Positions 47,917-57,656 of a stretch of DNA of 64,000 nucleotides are shown here, piece by piece. The stretch comes from Lachnospiraceae bacterium oral taxon 500. Its GTDB lineage: Bacteria; Bacillota; Clostridia; Lachnospirales; Vallitaleaceae. How positions within the stretch are numbered: the first letter of the stretch is position 1; each line of letters begins with the position of its first letter. The notes beneath the pieces are model-generated. The model was not told the origin of the DNA, made no database searches, and saw only the letters and a list, made by a program, of their open reading frames with translations. The DNA lies in the NCBI GenBank assembly GCA_002999035.1, contig CP027241.1, positions 2,494,195 through 2,558,194 of the forward strand, given 5' to 3'. A program made the translations under genes and the position numbers.

Positions 47917-47990
47917 CTTGTTATGCTTCCGGAGAGCAGCTCTCCACCGGCATAATATATCAATGTCCGCTTGCCTGAACCGTCGGCAAG
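47917..47990. repeat. Palindromic intergenic repeat overlapping the thiY 3' end
   Basis: TTATGC (47921-47926) pairs with GCATAA (47950-47955) around GGAGAGC-A-GCTCTCC; the core GCTTGCCTGAAC is at 47969-47980, and CTTGCC pairs with GGCAAG (47985-47990). The core supplies the last thiY codons and its stop. Confidence 0.65.
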
Positions 47991-49078
47991 TATTCATTGC
48001 TAAAGCCCTTGTCGGTCAAAGGTTCGGTAATCAGTTTCTGCTCGTACAGCCAATCATAAAAGCGGTTCCACCGCTCCCGGTCAATCATCCCCCAGCTTTC
48101 GGCATCAGCGATATACTGAGTTGATAAATATTCCTGACTGGCCCGAATCAAATCGGCATCGCCTTCCGGCGCGTTGCGGATTAAAATCTCGGCTGCTTCC
48201 GCCGGGTTATCCGCCGCAAACTCATAGCCCTTTTTAATGGCGCGCAAAGCCCGCCTGGCTACTTCCGGCTGCTTCGCCAAAAAGTCATCATTGGCAATCA
48301 GCACCGGCGTATAGTAGTCAAATTCCGGCGCATAATCGGTCAGCCGAAAGAAATTAGTATCGACCTGTTTCGTTTGGGCGTGAATATAATCCCAGCCCTG
48401 ATACACAAAAATCGCATCAAACATCTTCATTTGCAGAGCAGTCGTCGCATCGGTTGACTCGCCCGGCACCAGCTTAACCTTCGACCAATCGCCGCCGTCT
48501 TTTTCAGTGATAAACTGAACCGTAGCATCGTCAATCGGATCCTCCCAAGTAGAATATTTTTTACCGGTCAATTCCTTGGGTGAGGAAATACCGCTGTCCT
48601 TCAGGCTCATGATTCCGCCGGTATTATGCTGCAAGATGGCGGCCACCGCCGTAATCGGCGTTTTCGCCAAAAGCCGCTTCACCATATTCGGCTGAAAATG
48701 AATGCCAAACTCGGCCCGGCCCATGCCGACAATAACCGATGCGCTGTCTTCGGCCGGCTGAACGATATCAACCTCCAAGCCCTCCTCGGCAAAATAACCT
48801 TTATCCTTCGCTGCAAAAAGACCGGTATGATTGGTATTCGGTACCCAGTCCAACACAACTGTCAGTTTTTGCAGCTCCGCTTCGGATTTTTTTCCGGTTT
48901 CATCACTCTTGTCTTCTTCTTTTTTGTCGGCGGCTTTGCTGTCCGCCTCTTTCTTTTCTTCCGTTTCCTTAGACTTTTGTTCCTGCGCCGCCGGTTTTCC
49001 TTCCTCCCCGGTCTGACCGCAGGCCACCAGCGCCATACTCAGGATTATCGTTAAAATTAAATATTTTAGCTTTTTCAT
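47960..49078 (-). CDS. thiY: Thiamine-precursor-binding lipoprotein (NMT1/THI5-like)
   Basis: A 372-residue lipoprotein. A signal peptide ends in the lipobox LVAC (Cys20), followed by about 45 residues of Lys/Glu/Asp linker. The NMT1/THI5-like binding domain begins LTVVLDWVPNTNHTGLFAAK with GYFAEEGLEVDIVQP, the pattern of hydroxymethylpyrimidine-binding ThiY. TPP riboswitch control of the operon supports the substrate class. The last ten residues, ending VQASGH, come from an intergenic repeat, so the C-terminus is probably variable among relatives. The 200-base gap to thiX shows no convincing gene. Confidence 0.9.
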   Translation of the reverse strand: MKKLKYLILTIILSMALVACGQTGEEGKPAAQEQKSKETEEKKEADSKAADKKEEDKSDETGKKSEAELQKLTVVLDWVPNTNHTGLFAAKDKGYFAEEGLEVDIVQPAEDSASVIVGMGRAEFGIHFQPNMVKRLLAKTPITAVAAILQHNTGGIMSLKDSGISSPKELTGKKYSTWEDPIDDATVQFITEKDGGDWSKVKLVPGESTDATTALQMKMFDAIFVYQGWDYIHAQTKQVDTNFFRLTDYAPEFDYYTPVLIANDDFLAKQPEVARRALRAIKKGYEFAADNPAEAAEILIRNAPEGDADLIRASQEYLSTQYIADAESWGMIDRERWNRFYDWLYEQKLITEPLTDKGFSNEYLPTVQASGH

Positions 49079-49280
49079 ATTATCTTATCTCCTTTTCCAT
49101 CCAATCGGTCTAATTTCAAACTTAATTTTCTCTTTTTTCGCCGGCAGCCTACTGCCTTAAAAACAAAAAATATTTTCCGCGCCGGCACCCAAAATAAAAC
49201 TTTCGCATTTGCTGACCGCCCAAAACCGCGCCTGTCTGCCATTGCCAAAGCTTGATCCGTTTTCCGCACTTAGGCAGCCG

Positions 49281-50078
49281 TCAATATTTCACCACTTTTT
49301 TATGCAGCCAGTCAACCGCCGCCATTAAGAGCAAACTTAAACCGGATACAAAAAAAACAACGGCAAACATTTTATCCAGAGCCACCGCCTTACGCACCCG
49401 GGTCATATAGACACCCAGACCGGAATAACCGCCCAGCCATTCGGACACAACCGCCGAAATCAAAGCATACGAAACCGACACCCGCAGTCCGGCAAAAAAA
49501 TAGCCGATGCTGGCCGGCAGCTTGCCATGCCGGTATATCTGCCACCGGCTTGCGCCCATGCTTTGCAGCAGCCGGATACAGTCAGGATCAACCGACCGGT
49601 AGCCGTCAAGCAGCGCAATTAAAATCGGGAAAAAACCCGTCATCACCACCAGCACGATTTTGGGGGCCATATAATAGCCCAGCCAAATAATCAACAACGG
49701 CGCCACCGCCACCGTCGGAATCGTCTGGCTGATGATAATCGGCGAATACAGCAGGTCATAGCAGCGCTTGGACAAATCCATCAAGAGCGACAGGCCAAAT
49801 GCCAGCACAATCGCAATCAGCATGCCAATCAGCGCCTCCAGCAGCGTATACCGGGTATGATACAAAATCAGACGGATATCTTGGACAAAGGCCCGCGCTA
49901 CTGCATAGGGTGAGGGCAGGAAAAACTCAGGCAAAACCTTCAGCCATGCCAGTCCCTGCCACAGCAGCAATATCACGATGACAATGCTGTACCGGTAAAA
50001 AAAATCAATCACTTTTTTGGTGTTTTTAATGTTTTTATTGTTTGCGGTGTTTTTGGTATTTTGCTGTTTTTTCTTCAA
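49281..50078 (-). CDS. thiX: Thiamine-precursor ABC transporter permease
   Basis: A 265-residue permease with about six helices (YSIVIVILLLWQGLAWLKVL at the first) and the EAA loop DPDCIRLLQSMGASRWQIYR. It resembles ThiX/SsuC-type permeases that work with NMT1-like binding proteins. The start is uncertain: I use the TTG at 50078, with GAGGG eight bases upstream; the ATG at 50093 and a frame to 50186 are alternatives, but the longest places a terminator hairpin inside the coding sequence. A Lys/Asn/Thr-rich N-terminal tail is unusual. Confidence 0.85.
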   Translation of the reverse strand: MKKKQQNTKNTANNKNIKNTKKVIDFFYRYSIVIVILLLWQGLAWLKVLPEFFLPSPYAVARAFVQDIRLILYHTRYTLLEALIGMLIAIVLAFGLSLLMDLSKRCYDLLYSPIIISQTIPTVAVAPLLIIWLGYYMAPKIVLVVMTGFFPILIALLDGYRSVDPDCIRLLQSMGASRWQIYRHGKLPASIGYFFAGLRVSVSYALISAVVSEWLGGYSGLGVYMTRVRKAVALDKMFAVVFFVSGLSLLLMAAVDWLHKKVVKY

Positions 50079-50146
50079 TGCTAAGTCCCTCATCCTTTGG
50101 GTGATAACTGATACAGAACCCGAATTGCCATACTTGCATTTCCCAT

Positions 50147-50167
50147 AAAAAAACTCCCTTCCGGGAG
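50147..50167 (-). terminator. Second terminator-like hairpin in the thiX leader
   Basis: CTCCC-GGAA-GGGAG followed by seven T on the minus strand, about 70 bases ahead of the likely thiX start and well downstream of the riboswitch terminator. A transcript escaping the first terminator would meet this one too. Confidence 0.6.
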
Positions 50168-50221
50168 CGCTTAAACAAAAAGTCAAAGAAGATCGGCTTT
50201 CGTGCCGAAGTTTTTAAACTT

Positions 50222-52939: not shown

Positions 52940-54892
52940 ATGCTTCATCAATATGGTTATTATAAAATTGCTGCCGCCGTCCCGGCAGTTAAAATCGGCA
53001 ATGTCCAGCACAATCAGGCCGAAATCATCCGTTTCATCCGTCAGGCTGCGGAAAGTCAAATCTCTTTGTTGGCCTTTCCCGAGTTATGCCTGACCGGCGC
53101 CACCTGCGGTCAGCTTTTTAATCAAAAACTATTGCAGGATGCCTGTCATGCGGCGCTGACGGAAATCGCGGCCGTAACCGAGAATCTTTTTTTCCCGGTT
53201 ATTATCGGCAGCCCGGTCATGCATCAAGGCAAATTATTTAACTGCGCCGTCGTGTTCAGCGGCGGACAAGTTCGCGGCATTATCCCCAAGCTGATCTTAA
53301 ATCCGGAAGAAAAGCGGTATTTTTCTGCTCCGGCCGATGATTTTTCAGTTTCCGGCGAAGCCATGCTAACCGGCTGCTCCGCTCCGTTCGGCAATTCTCT
53401 GCTTTTTGCACCTGAAAGAAACCGCGATTTTTGCTTTGCCGTGGAAATGGGCGAGGATTATAAAAGCATCTTTTCGCCATCAGCACTCAGTCTTTATACT
53501 CCGGCAACGGTCATTGTCAATCCGGCGGCACTCCCGGCCAAGGTCGGCTTTTTAGAGCAAACCGAACAAAGATTGAGCGCGATTTCCCGCAATAACCATC
53601 TTGCTTATTTGCATATCGGCAGCAACTTAGGGGAATCCAGTACCTACCACGCTTTCGCGGGACAGGCATATCTTGCGGAAAACGGAAAAATCCTCAGCCG
53701 AAGTACGCCTTATTCTCAGTCGGGACAGCTCATTACCGGCCTAATTGACGCGGAAAAAGCTTCTTTTTTAAAGCGTTCCGAAGTCATGGCCGTCCGGGCC
53801 ATCCCCGGCAGCGCCGGTGTTTTTCTGTCCTGTCAAAATATTTTGGAATATCCGGCTAAGCCTGCGGCAGCAGAAAACGGCCTACCGCTTCTGCCGCTCC
53901 TGCCACGCTTTCCCTTTATTCCGGACGATGCCGCCCGGCTGGAAAGAAACTGCCGGGAAGTGATTGATATTACCGTTTCCGCTTGTATTCGGCGTTTTCG
54001 CCATGTGCAAAACCGCACGGCCGTGATCGGTATTTCCGGGGGGCTCGATTCCACTTTGGCTCTGCTGTTTTTAGCCGAGGCCTATCGGCGCATGGAAAAG
54101 CCTTTAACCGAAATTGTCGGTGTGCGGATGCCGGGCTTTGGCACCAGCGGCCAAACCTATGAAAACTCCTGTCAGCTGATGCAGCTGCTTGGCATCAGCC
54201 AGCGGGAAATCAATATTAAAGCCGCTGTCCTTCAGCATTTACAGGATATCGAGCATCCGGCTAATCAGCAGGATACCACCTATGAAAATGCGCAGGCTCG
54301 CGAACGCACCCAAATCTTAATGGATATCGCCAACCAAACCGGCGGACTGGTCATCGGGACCGGTGACTTATCGGAACTGGCGCTGGGTTTTTGCACCTAT
54401 AACGGCGATCACATGAGTATGTACTCCCTGAACGCTTCCATCCCCAAAACCTTGATTCCCTATATCATCCGTTCCCTGGGCCGAAGCTACGCCGATTCGG
54501 ATTTGCGGGCAGTTCTGGAAAGCATTATTGATACACCGATCAGCCCCGAACTCCTGCCGCCGACCGCCAATCAGCAAATTCTGCAAAAAACCGAAGAACT
54601 GATCGGGCCTTACGCCCTGCACGATTTCTTCCTATATTATATGATAAAGTACGGCTTTTCCCCGAAAAAAATCCGGGCACTGGCAGTGAAAACCTTTGCC
54701 GGTGATTTCGACGCAGAAACAGTGAATAAATGGCTGAAAGTTTTTTACCACCGCTTCTTTGCGCAGCAGTTTAAGCGCAACTGTCTGCCGGATGGCCCAT
54801 CAGTCAGTGATGTTTCCCTGGCGGCCGCTTTTTCTATGCCGAGTGATGCCAGCGCTGCTCTGTGGCTGACGGATTTAGAGGAAGCCTTATGA
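52940..54892 (+). CDS. nadE: NAD synthetase, glutamine-type architecture, with Gly at the glutaminase nucleophile
   Basis: A 650-residue protein with an N-terminal nitrilase-like glutaminase domain (about 1-290) and a C-terminal NAD synthetase domain with the ATP P-loop VIGISGGLDSTLALLF. The synthetase part (VGVRMPGFGTSGQTYENSCQ, VIGTGDLSELALGFCTYNGD) looks intact. In the glutaminase part, Glu48 (FPELCLTG) and Lys117 (IIPKLIL) are in place, but the nucleophile position expected in an EICED-type motif reads VEMGEDY, with Gly171 (codon GGC). Glutamine cleavage is therefore doubtful and the enzyme may rely on free ammonia. It overlaps dgkA by four bases. Confidence 0.92.
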   Translation: MLHQYGYYKIAAAVPAVKIGNVQHNQAEIIRFIRQAAESQISLLAFPELCLTGATCGQLFNQKLLQDACHAALTEIAAVTENLFFPVIIGSPVMHQGKLFNCAVVFSGGQVRGIIPKLILNPEEKRYFSAPADDFSVSGEAMLTGCSAPFGNSLLFAPERNRDFCFAVEMGEDYKSIFSPSALSLYTPATVIVNPAALPAKVGFLEQTEQRLSAISRNNHLAYLHIGSNLGESSTYHAFAGQAYLAENGKILSRSTPYSQSGQLITGLIDAEKASFLKRSEVMAVRAIPGSAGVFLSCQNILEYPAKPAAAENGLPLLPLLPRFPFIPDDAARLERNCREVIDITVSACIRRFRHVQNRTAVIGISGGLDSTLALLFLAEAYRRMEKPLTEIVGVRMPGFGTSGQTYENSCQLMQLLGISQREINIKAAVLQHLQDIEHPANQQDTTYENAQARERTQILMDIANQTGGLVIGTGDLSELALGFCTYNGDHMSMYSLNASIPKTLIPYIIRSLGRSYADSDLRAVLESIIDTPISPELLPPTANQQILQKTEELIGPYALHDFFLYYMIKYGFSPKKIRALAVKTFAGDFDAETVNKWLKVFYHRFFAQQFKRNCLPDGPSVSDVSLAAAFSMPSDASAALWLTDLEEAL

Positions 54893-55278
54893 GTAAAAAA
54901 GTAAGACGCCTCATTGACAGCTTTCACTATGCCATTTCCGGTATTTTGATTGCCTTTCGGGAAGAACGGAACTTTAAAATTCATACGATTCTGGCCGTTT
55001 GCGCCATTTTCTTGGCCACGCTTTTAACCTGCAGCCTGACAGAGTGGATGATTATTCTTTTGTGCATCGGCGTTGTCATGTCGGCTGAAATTTTTAATAC
55101 CGCTTTGGAAAATACAATGGACTGGCTGGATCCGCAGTACAATAAATATGTAAAAAGAGTAAAAGACCTGGCGGCCGGTGCCGTCCTGATTATCTCTCTG
55201 GCCGTCGCCGCCATTGGTCTCTTGATTTTTGTGCCTAAACTCTGGCCGCTGTTGATGAAGTTTTTGGGAATTCAATAA
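54889..55278 (+). CDS. dgkA: Undecaprenol/diacylglycerol kinase
   Basis: A 129-residue, three-helix membrane kinase of the DgkA family. In Gram-positives it phosphorylates undecaprenol and so recycles the cell-wall lipid carrier. The conserved EIFNTALENTMDWLDPQYNK region with the catalytic Glu, and RVKDLAAGAVLI, are clear; the N-terminus SFHYAISGILIAFREERNFK also matches. The ATG at 54889 overlaps the nadE stop (ATGA), giving translational coupling. A strong hairpin terminator follows. Confidence 0.95.
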   Translation: MSKKVRRLIDSFHYAISGILIAFREERNFKIHTILAVCAIFLATLLTCSLTEWMIILLCIGVVMSAEIFNTALENTMDWLDPQYNKYVKRVKDLAAGAVLIISLAVAAIGLLIFVPKLWPLLMKFLGIQ

Positions 55279-55443: not shown

Positions 55444-56838
55444 TTAATTACTTTTGTTCGATAATTTCTTATCAATCTCGGCCGCCGCTTTTTTACCGGC
55501 ACCCATCGCTAAAATAACTGTCGCCGCGCCGGTAACCACATCACCGCCGGCATAGACATTTTCCATGCTGGTCATGCAGCTGGCTTCATCAATTACAATA
55601 CAGCCATGACGGTTCGTGACAATATCCGGTTCGGCTCGCTTAATAATCGGGTTCGGTGTCTGGCCGATGGCAATAACCACGCTGTCCACCGCCAGTATTT
55701 CCTCGGAACCGGCGATTTCCACCGGACTGCGCCGGCCGCTGGCATCCGGCTCACCCAGCTGCATATGAATGATTTCCATGCCGCTGACCCGGCCGCTTTC
55801 GCCTAAGATCCGAGTGGGATTGGCTAGCAGACGGAACTCAATTCCTTCTTCCTTAGCGTGATGAACTTCCTCCAATCTGGCGGGCAACTCCTGCTCCGAG
55901 CGCCGATAGACAATTGACACCTGCCCTGCGCCCAGCCGCTTGGCTGTTCTGGCTGCATCCATCGCCACATTGCCGCCGCCGACCACCGCGACCTTATCAC
56001 CGGTTTTAATCGGCGTTCCGATGGCATTTTTCCGATAGGCTTTCATTAAATTAACTCTTGTTAAAAACTCATTGGCTGAATAGACACCGTTTAAGGATTC
56101 CCCCGGAATATTCATAAACCGGGGCAGCCCTGCTCCGCTGCCGATAAAAACAGCCCGATAGCCTTGTGCAAACAAATCTTCAAACAGAACGGACTGACCG
56201 ACAATTACATTTTTATGCACCGTCACCCCCAGCTCCAGCACCTGATCAATTTCCGCTTTTACCAGCTGCTTGGGCAAGCGGAACTCCGGAATACCATAAA
56301 CCAGCACGCCGCCCAGTTCATGCAGCGCTTCAAAAATCGTAACCTCATAGCCCCGCTGTGCCAGTTCATTGGCGCATGTAATCCCGGCCGGACCGGAACC
56401 GACCACCGCTACCTTAATGCCGTTTTTGACCGGCTGCTCGATTCGAATTAAATTATTGGTCCGAACATAGTCCGCCACAAACCGCTCCAATCGACCGATT
56501 GCCACCGATTCACCGTTTTTCCCCCGGACACAGACCCGCTCACATTGATTTTCCTGCGGGCAAACCCGACCGGTAATACCGGGTAAACGGTTTTGAGCGG
56601 CAATCACTTCATACGCCCGCAAAACCTCACCGGCCGCCAGTGCCTCAATAAACTCCGGAATCGGTACATTGACCGGACAGCCGCCGACACAGGGTTTGTG
56701 CTTGCAGTTCAGACAGCGCTCAGCTTCTTCTCTGGCCATTTCCAAGGTATAGCCCAAGGTCACTTCGGCAAAGTTTTGATTTCTGACCTCCGGCGCCTGT
56801 TCCGGCATCGGCACCTTTGTTTTTGCCCGATTTACCAT
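55444..56838 (-). CDS. nfnB: NADPH-dependent ferredoxin:NADP oxidoreductase large subunit (GltA/NfnB type)
   Basis: A 464-residue flavoprotein with two N-terminal iron-sulfur motifs (CLNCKHKPCVGGCPVNVPIP and CPQENQCERVCV) and two Rossmann domains (VAVVGSGPAGITCANELAQR; VAVVGGGNVAMDAARTAKRL). It resembles the glutamate synthase small subunit, but next to the NfnA-type gene it is better read as the large subunit of NfnAB, which bifurcates electrons between NADH, NADPH and ferredoxin in anaerobes. The ATG at 56838 follows GGAGGG. It overlaps nfnA by seven bases. Confidence 0.88.
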   Translation of the reverse strand: MVNRAKTKVPMPEQAPEVRNQNFAEVTLGYTLEMAREEAERCLNCKHKPCVGGCPVNVPIPEFIEALAAGEVLRAYEVIAAQNRLPGITGRVCPQENQCERVCVRGKNGESVAIGRLERFVADYVRTNNLIRIEQPVKNGIKVAVVGSGPAGITCANELAQRGYEVTIFEALHELGGVLVYGIPEFRLPKQLVKAEIDQVLELGVTVHKNVIVGQSVLFEDLFAQGYRAVFIGSGAGLPRFMNIPGESLNGVYSANEFLTRVNLMKAYRKNAIGTPIKTGDKVAVVGGGNVAMDAARTAKRLGAGQVSIVYRRSEQELPARLEEVHHAKEEGIEFRLLANPTRILGESGRVSGMEIIHMQLGEPDASGRRSPVEIAGSEEILAVDSVVIAIGQTPNPIIKRAEPDIVTNRHGCIVIDEASCMTSMENVYAGGDVVTGAATVILAMGAGKKAAAEIDKKLSNKSN

Positions 56839-57656
56839 GTTTTTCCCTCCAGCCTGCACTTATGCTCTTCTTCTTTAAAAAAGCCCTGTCTTTGCATTAA
56901 CTCATCAAACTCCACCAGAAAACCGTCAAAATCCGGCCCGTCAACACAGGAAAACTTCGTTTGACCACCGACTTTCACCCGACAGCAGCCGCACATACCG
57001 GTTCCGTCAATCATAATCGGATTGAGCGACACGGCTGTCCGCAGTCCAATCGGTTTCGTCACTTCCACCACCGCCCGCATCATAACCACCGGACCGATGG
57101 CAATAACTTCATCATAATTTTCGCCTTGCCGCAAAAGCTCTTTCAGCACATCGGTCACAAAGCCGGTCCGCCCGGCTGAACCATCATTGGTCACCAGATA
57201 AACATGATCGGCAAACTCGGCAAAATCCTGTTCCAGCAGGATCAGTTCTTTTGACCGGGCACCGATAATTACGTCGACTTTCACTCCCCGCTTTTTTAAC
57301 TCCCGCAGTTGCGGATAAAGGGGGGCTGCTCCTACTCCGCCGGCAATGCCAAGCACCCTTTCCTTAGCATGGAAAACCGCAGGCTGTCCCATCGGCCCCG
57401 CGACTTCAGGAATAAAATCGCCGGCCTCAAGCCGCGCCAGCTCCTGCGTGGAACGGCCGACAATCTGATAAATCAAAGTAATACTGCCCATTTCCCGGTC
57501 GGCATCAACAATCGTCAGCGGAACCCGTTCCCCATCCTGTCTCGGAATCACTATCACAAACTGCCCCGGCCGGCAGCGGGCGGCGACAAAAGGCGCTTCC
57601 ACCTGAATCTGCTCTACCAACTCGCTTTTCTTTTGTTTCTTTAAAATTTTATACAT
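56832..57656 (-). CDS. nfnA: Ferredoxin:NADP oxidoreductase small subunit (NfnA type)
   Basis: A 274-residue FAD/NAD-binding protein of the dihydroorotate dehydrogenase electron-transfer type: RVPLTIVDADREMGSITLIY, the NAD-binding VLGIAGGVGAAPLYPQLREL and a C-terminal [2Fe-2S] motif GTGMCGCCRVKVGGQTKFSC with a Cys cluster. It pairs with the large subunit downstream, overlapping by seven bases. NfnAB couples NADPH and ferredoxin pools and is typical of fermenting Clostridia. The Shine-Dalgarno AAGGAG is close to the ATG. Confidence 0.9.
   Translation of the reverse strand: MYKILKKQKKSELVEQIQVEAPFVAARCRPGQFVIVIPRQDGERVPLTIVDADREMGSITLIYQIVGRSTQELARLEAGDFIPEVAGPMGQPAVFHAKERVLGIAGGVGAAPLYPQLRELKKRGVKVDVIIGARSKELILLEQDFAEFADHVYLVTNDGSAGRTGFVTDVLKELLRQGENYDEVIAIGPVVMMRAVVEVTKPIGLRTAVSLNPIMIDGTGMCGCCRVKVGGQTKFSCVDGPDFDGFLVEFDELMQRQGFFKEEEHKCRLEGKTW

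Follow-up and report, generated by a model that had tools for sequence, protein, structure and literature searches.

Fused two-domain NAD synthetases are treated as glutamine users in the main text of PMC3376133, in which the use of ammonia is taken as ancestral and the loss of whole forms of the enzyme is described in lineages. In the glutamine-dependent enzymes, an extended C-terminal loop contacts the glutaminase domain (PMC3376133). Roles have been assigned to Tyr58, the YRE loop, Glu132, Trp179/Phe180 and Lys644 in the human and M. tuberculosis (tbNadE) enzymes (PMC6946656), and Asp497 is the last ammonia-transfer site in tbNadE. Human NadE is an octamer with a core of double layers of glutaminase tetramers, tbNadE is also an octamer, and two-domain NadEs also take free ammonia as a substrate (PMC6946656). 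In Thermus thermophilus, the glutaminase subunit of NADS is active (PMC3376133). A glutaminase-like domain with its nucleophile replaced is found in human CPS1, where Ser294 stands in place of Cys, the old tunnel is blocked, and external ammonia is used (PMC4655335). For NadE, a word search of the main text of PMC3376133 returned no wording on inactivation, degeneration or cysteine, and no report of a natural loss of the nucleophile was found in the literature searched, which included few subscription papers.

The window, a stretch of 64,000 nucleotides from Lachnospiraceae bacterium oral taxon 500, contains a nadE gene (Table 1) that begins with ATG and forms a single open frame. The product scores 666.6 bits against NF002730, "NAD(+) synthase" (PRK02628), for which the curated cut-off is 473, and has Pfam matches to PF00795 (CN_hydrolase, residues 12-121) and PF02540 (NAD_synthase). 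Its identity as a two-domain NadE of the M. tuberculosis type is firm, and the fused nitrilase-like domain is present, which is not the case in type N NadE. The synthetase domain keeps 95 of 107 near-invariant columns, as against 31 of 44 in the glutaminase domain; the sequence-only reading, in which the former looked intact, is borne out in this respect. In the linker at residues 284-294, the first alignment has a gap fraction of 1.0 (rounded) over its 100 Cys-bearing rows.

Table 1. Features of the two-domain NadE and its gene, in window positions.
Feature	Position	Strand	Basis or remark
nadE, two-domain NAD(+) synthase, 650 aa	52940..54892	+	NF002730, 666.6 bits; only NadE found in the genome
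Nitrilase-like (CN hydrolase) domain, predicted non-catalytic	52952..53764	+	Residues ~5-275; PF00795, AF2, VIA-align
Glu48, equivalent of catalytic Glu52 of tbNadE, kept	53081..53083	+	Alignment
Ala54, Tyr58 of tbNadE (constriction 1)	53099..53101	+	Tyr in 136/136 Cys-bearing rows
Lys117, equivalent of catalytic Lys121 of tbNadE, kept	53288..53290	+	Alignment
Shortened YRE loop	53291..53317	+	8 residues between Lys117 and Arg126 vs 12
Cys165, closest cysteine to Gly171	53432..53434	+	Alignment; Thr and Ser in two congeners
Gly171 (GGC), nucleophile position, Cys176 of tbNadE	53450..53452	+	HMMER alignment
Lys175, Trp179 of human NadE / Phe180 of tbNadE, glutamine-tunnel gate	53462..53464	+	Trp in 134/136 Cys-bearing rows
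Linker stretch, residues 284-294	53789..53821	+	Filled in 3/3 genus members; gap in Cys-bearing rows
NAD synthetase domain with SGGLDST, residues 325-648	53912..54883	+	95/107 near-invariant columns kept
Extended C-terminal loop	54788..54841	+	17 residues counted vs 19 in 136/137 Cys-bearing rows

The glutaminase domain lacks the nucleophilic Cys of its Cys-Glu-Lys triad. HMMER aligns the motif VEMGED, whose first residue is 168, with VEICED of tbNadE (3dla) and also with VEIAED of 3sdb and 6ofc, entries that are described as, or with, the C176A mutant (entry titles; PMC6946656). The sequence-only reading had placed a Gly at this position, and alignment with the characterised enzymes confirms it: the nucleophile column holds Gly171 and not the nearby Cys. 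The other two members of the triad are retained, as had also been claimed, and align with a Glu and a Lys that are invariant over the 109 rows compared in the first alignment. Because the nucleophilic Cys is Gly, the nitrilase-like domain would be unable to attack glutamine. The protein is classed as a two-domain NadE by family and, from its predicted function, not as a glutamine-dependent NAD synthetase.

The nucleophile is not the only part of the glutamine machinery to be missing. With the residue numbers of tbNadE carried over through the alignments, the window enzyme and its congeners have lost the nucleophile, part of the YRE loop, and residues of both gate and pocket. Across the genus, Tyr54 is replaced by Ala or Ser, Trp175 by Lys or Tyr, Ser196 by Ala or Cys, and Lys204 by Phe, Tyr or Ser; residue 198, which is Ser203 of tbNadE by offset, is Leu. 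Instead of a complete YRE coupling loop, the window enzyme has one from which the Tyr is gone and in which the second Glu (Glu124 by alignment) is retained. Its C-terminal loop is without the lysine equated with the tunnel residue Lys644 of tbNadE (Lys621, which is Ser, Ile or Leu in the genus), and the single Cys-bearing row that departs from the usual length of this loop is cut by a contig end. On the other hand, Glu48, Lys117, Glu124 and Glu172 are retained in the genus, and the Asp equated with Asp497 is present in every row covering that position. This pattern favors the ammonia-dependent alternative that had been raised beside the missing Cys.

The predicted structure agrees with the alignment. 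An AlphaFold2 monomer model built with 63 sequences has a mean pLDDT of 87.3 and a pTM of 0.88, and the nitrilase-like domain is its better predicted half, with 10-residue blocks mostly at 92-98 and one at 79. In VIA-align, the best matches are tbNadE entries, at Z 45.0 and rmsd 2.7 over 606 residues of the entire chain, and 3dla, 3sdb, 3seq, 3sez and 3szg together span Z 44.7-45.0, rmsd 2.7-2.8 and 597-606 residues; Foldseek also places tbNadE entries first, with a TM of 0.86. Around the 160-175 loop, where a structure prediction had been proposed, a strand at residues 166-168 is followed by a helix that begins at Gly171, and Cys165 lies just before the strand. This bears on the idea that glutamine is still used by way of another nucleophile, be it Cys165 or some other group. 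The closeness of Cys165 to Gly171 in sequence, and the four glutamate and lysine residues that the genus retains, speak for it; however, Cys165 is Thr or Ser in the two congeners, it precedes the strand leading to the nucleophile elbow, and the gate and pocket residues are lost, so that this explanation is very unlikely. The cysteine had been numbered 166 and counted as five residues before the glycine, which has to be corrected to Cys165, six residues before it; its suggested service as a substitute nucleophile is disfavored.

Gly occupies the nucleophile position in all three genomes of the genus that were examined, the window's included, with the motifs VEIGEDS and IELGEDY in the two congeners. 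Gly171 is no sequencing slip, because both congeners also have Gly. One congener NadE (G002) is 57% identical to that of the window, and the other (G001) is 46% identical over residues 2-279 and 74% over residues 315-648. The three form one clade with a support of 100/100 in a 60-row tree of the synthetase domain. A sequencing error or a decaying pseudogene therefore has a negligible probability: the same Gly stands in three genomes, the gene is one open frame, the synthetase domain is conserved, no other NadE was found, and nothing was found in support. Elsewhere in the family, the members with a NadE that were examined (G004-G021) all have Cys, and one (G003) gave no NadE match in the homology search.

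Beyond the genus, 96 genomes chosen by kinship were searched, 82 of which had a NadE match; seven of these matches are short and weak (frames of 241-279 aa) and are probably single-domain NadE or another enzyme. Among the remaining 75 genomes, which include the window's, 62 have Cys, seven have Gly, five have a degenerate site, and one (G040) is cut by a contig end. A sequence search (best 80 matches) adds L038 (Gly), L046 (Gln), L076 (Ser) and L097 (Gly), while L099 (Gly) and L026 of G049 are one and the same region of sequence. One genome (G046; L018, L138) has two full-length NadE copies, both with Cys, and the NadE matches of G091, G083 and G092 each have one internal stop codon in the matched stretch (TGA, TAG and TAA, respectively).

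The fewest Cys changes required are seven on the 60-row tree, which has 10 non-Cys rows and was made without the degenerate rows L121-L125 and L127; eight on a 154-row quick tree; and four on a 74-row sample of the relatives alone. A single event for the window genus and L099/L118 is not rejected (p-AU 0.155), so six to seven events are counted and not seven. Three non-Cys rows are on starred branches: L161 next to L160/L163, L038 next to two Paenibacillus rows, and L076 next to L147. L097 and L046 are not. Five named cases outside the genome sample are all metagenome assemblies, in which base errors are unlikely because pocket residues are lost together. At least six to seven independent losses of the Cys are counted among the two-domain NadEs sampled.

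Each of these losses comes with an additional loss in the same pocket. For the comparison, 16 distinct non-Cys rows were used, with L026 omitted as a duplicate and L118 and L126 as rows without the domain. Tyr54 is kept in 3/16 non-Cys as against 136/136 Cys rows, Trp175 in 2/16 against 134/136, Ser196 in 2/16 against 133/136, Lys204 in 1/16 against 136/136, Glu124 in 9/16 against 133/136, and Tyr123, whose column lies in a gapped loop, in 0/16 against 130/136. All but one of the 137 Cys rows have a YRE loop spacing of 12; 13 of the 16 non-Cys rows have a shorter one, which in the window genus is 8. One Cys-bearing row, L083, has a loop shortened to 8, perhaps as an intermediate or through an alignment effect. 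Glu48 and Lys117 are each kept in 15/16 non-Cys and 136/136 Cys rows, and they persist even in L122 and L123, in which the nucleophile strand falls in alignment gaps. Their retention in enzymes without the Cys is therefore no sign of activity by itself.

Some of the changes go further. L121-L125 and L127 are two-domain NadEs with shrunken frames of 570-619 aa; the nucleophile site is degenerate in five of them (L121-L124 and L127, for which the alignment near the nucleophile is uncertain), and L125 has Gly in VEIGED. In G028 (L118, C55:15200-19100), nadE is split into a 271-residue glutaminase ORF with Gly and, after it in a different frame, a synthetase ORF of 378 residues, whose own score of 541.2 bits exceeds the NF002730 cut-off. 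The NadE of its congener (G049, L099) is a fused protein, also with Gly, and the split in G028 may be real or an assembly error.

The glutaminase domain of the window genus has also diverged faster. At equal synthetase identity, and with the pairs being non-independent, the three genus pairs have glutaminase identities of 42.4% and 45.9%, against a mean of 55.0% in Cys-bearing pairs (1/310 and 10/310 as low, respectively), and of 45.7% against 66.6% (0/41 as low). Rows L118, L126, L121-L125 and L127 were dropped beforehand. Among the other losses, L046 also falls below all Cys-bearing pairs (0/222 as low), whereas L161 (1766/4145), L038 (1477/1817), L097 (148/337) and L076 (2193/3426) are ordinary, and faster glutaminase divergence is thus not general among the losses. 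In the three genus pairs, dN (NG86) in the glutaminase domain is about three times that in the synthetase domain, compared with 0.9-1.9 times in four Cys-bearing pairs. With a glutaminase dN of 0.48-0.57 and a saturated dS, the domain is evolving faster in the genus but is under a weaker, real constraint.

No second NadE was found in the window genome, a single contig of 3.2 Mb that is 99.98% complete, in which the window protein matches only one place. The NAD_synthase model has six matches there: nadE, two within one frame read as GuaA, and three weaker ones in an MnmA-like protein, a ThiI-like protein and a 277-aa frame. It is conceivable that glutamine-derived ammonia reaches the synthetase in trans from a separate glutaminase subunit, as in types C and R, and Thermus thermophilus provides an example of an enzyme built from two subunits in this way (PMC3376133). 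However, the complete genome has no other CN-hydrolase (nitrilase-family) match at E 0.001, and its only class I glutamine amidotransferase matches are the two read as GuaA and PyrG, which makes a supply in trans most improbable. There is no CarA-, TrpG- or HisH-type match among these class I matches, and this therefore hints at auxotrophies. A general loss of glutamine use is rejected: four other glutamine amidotransferases examined, which from their sequences we take to be GuaA, PyrG, AsnB and PurF, retain the Cys of the motifs we presume for them. A nicotinate phosphoribosyltransferase is present as the sole match of the NAPRT/NAMPT family and points to the NaAD route.

A loss of the Cys following from a missing glutamine synthetase is not supported, the window genome having a PF00120 match in a 720-aa frame, presumably a type III glutamine synthetase from its length. 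Matches at E 1e-20 occur in 9/13 non-Cys and 54/62 Cys genomes, which are lower bounds, the threshold lying near the scores of the long form. Strong matches (E < 1e-40, taken as type I) occur in 2/13 and 49/62, respectively (Fisher p 2.6e-5), where the 13 include G040, which is uninformative on the Cys. In a tree-aware test with only 3-4 independent pairs, this association is not significant.

Taken together, the enzyme is very probably a glutaminase-dead, ammonia-dependent NAD(+) synthetase that retains a pseudo-glutaminase as its structural core, a reading that is based on sequence comparison. Judging from the residues kept and from knowledge of the family, the synthetase domain would adenylate NaAD, supplied via the nicotinate phosphoribosyltransferase route, and then amidate it with free ammonia. 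The nitrilase-like domain is probably retained because glutaminase layers form the core of the octamer in the human enzyme, and service as such a core would be its most likely task here. Two points count against this reading: Glu48 and Lys117 are retained, which would not be required of a freely decaying site, and the pocket might still bind something; and in the genus the glutaminase domain does not evolve neutrally and is confidently modeled.

An overlapping explanation, which differs only in the job of the dead domain, is that it has a new non-hydrolytic task, for example that it binds a small molecule (glutamine, glutamate or some other) and regulates the synthetase. The persistence of Glu48 and Lys117 across independent losses and the continuing constraint are in line with this idea; the retained residues are equally explicable as structural, the domain is a separate ORF in G028, and six rows have a degenerate site or a shrunken frame. 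Such a task is accordingly unlikely. A wider reading is offered only tentatively and is rather doubtful: two-domain NadEs may have reverted to ammonia repeatedly along a stereotyped path, in which the Cys, the YRE Tyr and the glutamine gate and pocket are taken apart. The Glu-Lys pair and the nitrilase fold would be kept because the domain now serves as a scaffold, as a way in for ammonia, or as a non-catalytic sensor that still controls the synthetase. If this were true, a whole class of bacterial pseudo-glutaminases would exist as a bacterial counterpart of CPS1.

Downstream of nadE lies a prokaryotic diacylglycerol kinase gene (54889-55278, + strand; DAGK_prokar, 114.8 bits), which has a possible start codon overlapping the stop codon of nadE (ATGA), an arrangement that suggests translational coupling. 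Also beside nadE, at 55444-57656 on the - strand, are a GltA-type protein (TIGR01316, above the cut-off) and a sulfide/dihydroorotate dehydrogenase-like FAD/NAD-binding protein, a pair that we presume may be an NfnAB-type transhydrogenase. ABC permease and substrate-binding proteins are encoded at 47960-50186 (- strand), with SaoP and SsuA as their nearest models, far below the curated cut-offs.

These results argue that fused NadEs have given up glutamine several times over. NF002730 names the window protein in the same way as a Cys-bearing one, and annotation by family score thus carries no information on the nitrogen donor. Such lineages would be natural separation-of-function enzymes, from which it may be learned what the glutaminase core does beyond hydrolysis and which donor feeds NAD.

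Compared with known systems, the window enzyme has the same two-domain architecture and fold as tbNadE (3dla). The C176A mutants of tbNadE (3sdb, 3seq, 3sez, 3szg) have a laboratory Ala where the window enzyme has Gly171; in contrast to these mutants, the loss in the window is natural and extends to part of the YRE loop and to the residues that correspond to Tyr58, Ser203 and Lys644. With single-domain, type N NadE it has free ammonia as a common presumed donor (PMC3376133), but it keeps a complete fused nitrilase-like domain and belongs to NF002730. In Thermus thermophilus NADS, the glutaminase and synthetase are on separate polypeptides, seemingly as in G028. The nearest functional parallel is human CPS1, which also retains a glutaminase-like domain with its nucleophilic Cys replaced; the two differ in glutaminase class and in synthetase, and in NadE the change is to Gly in the window and recurs in bacteria.
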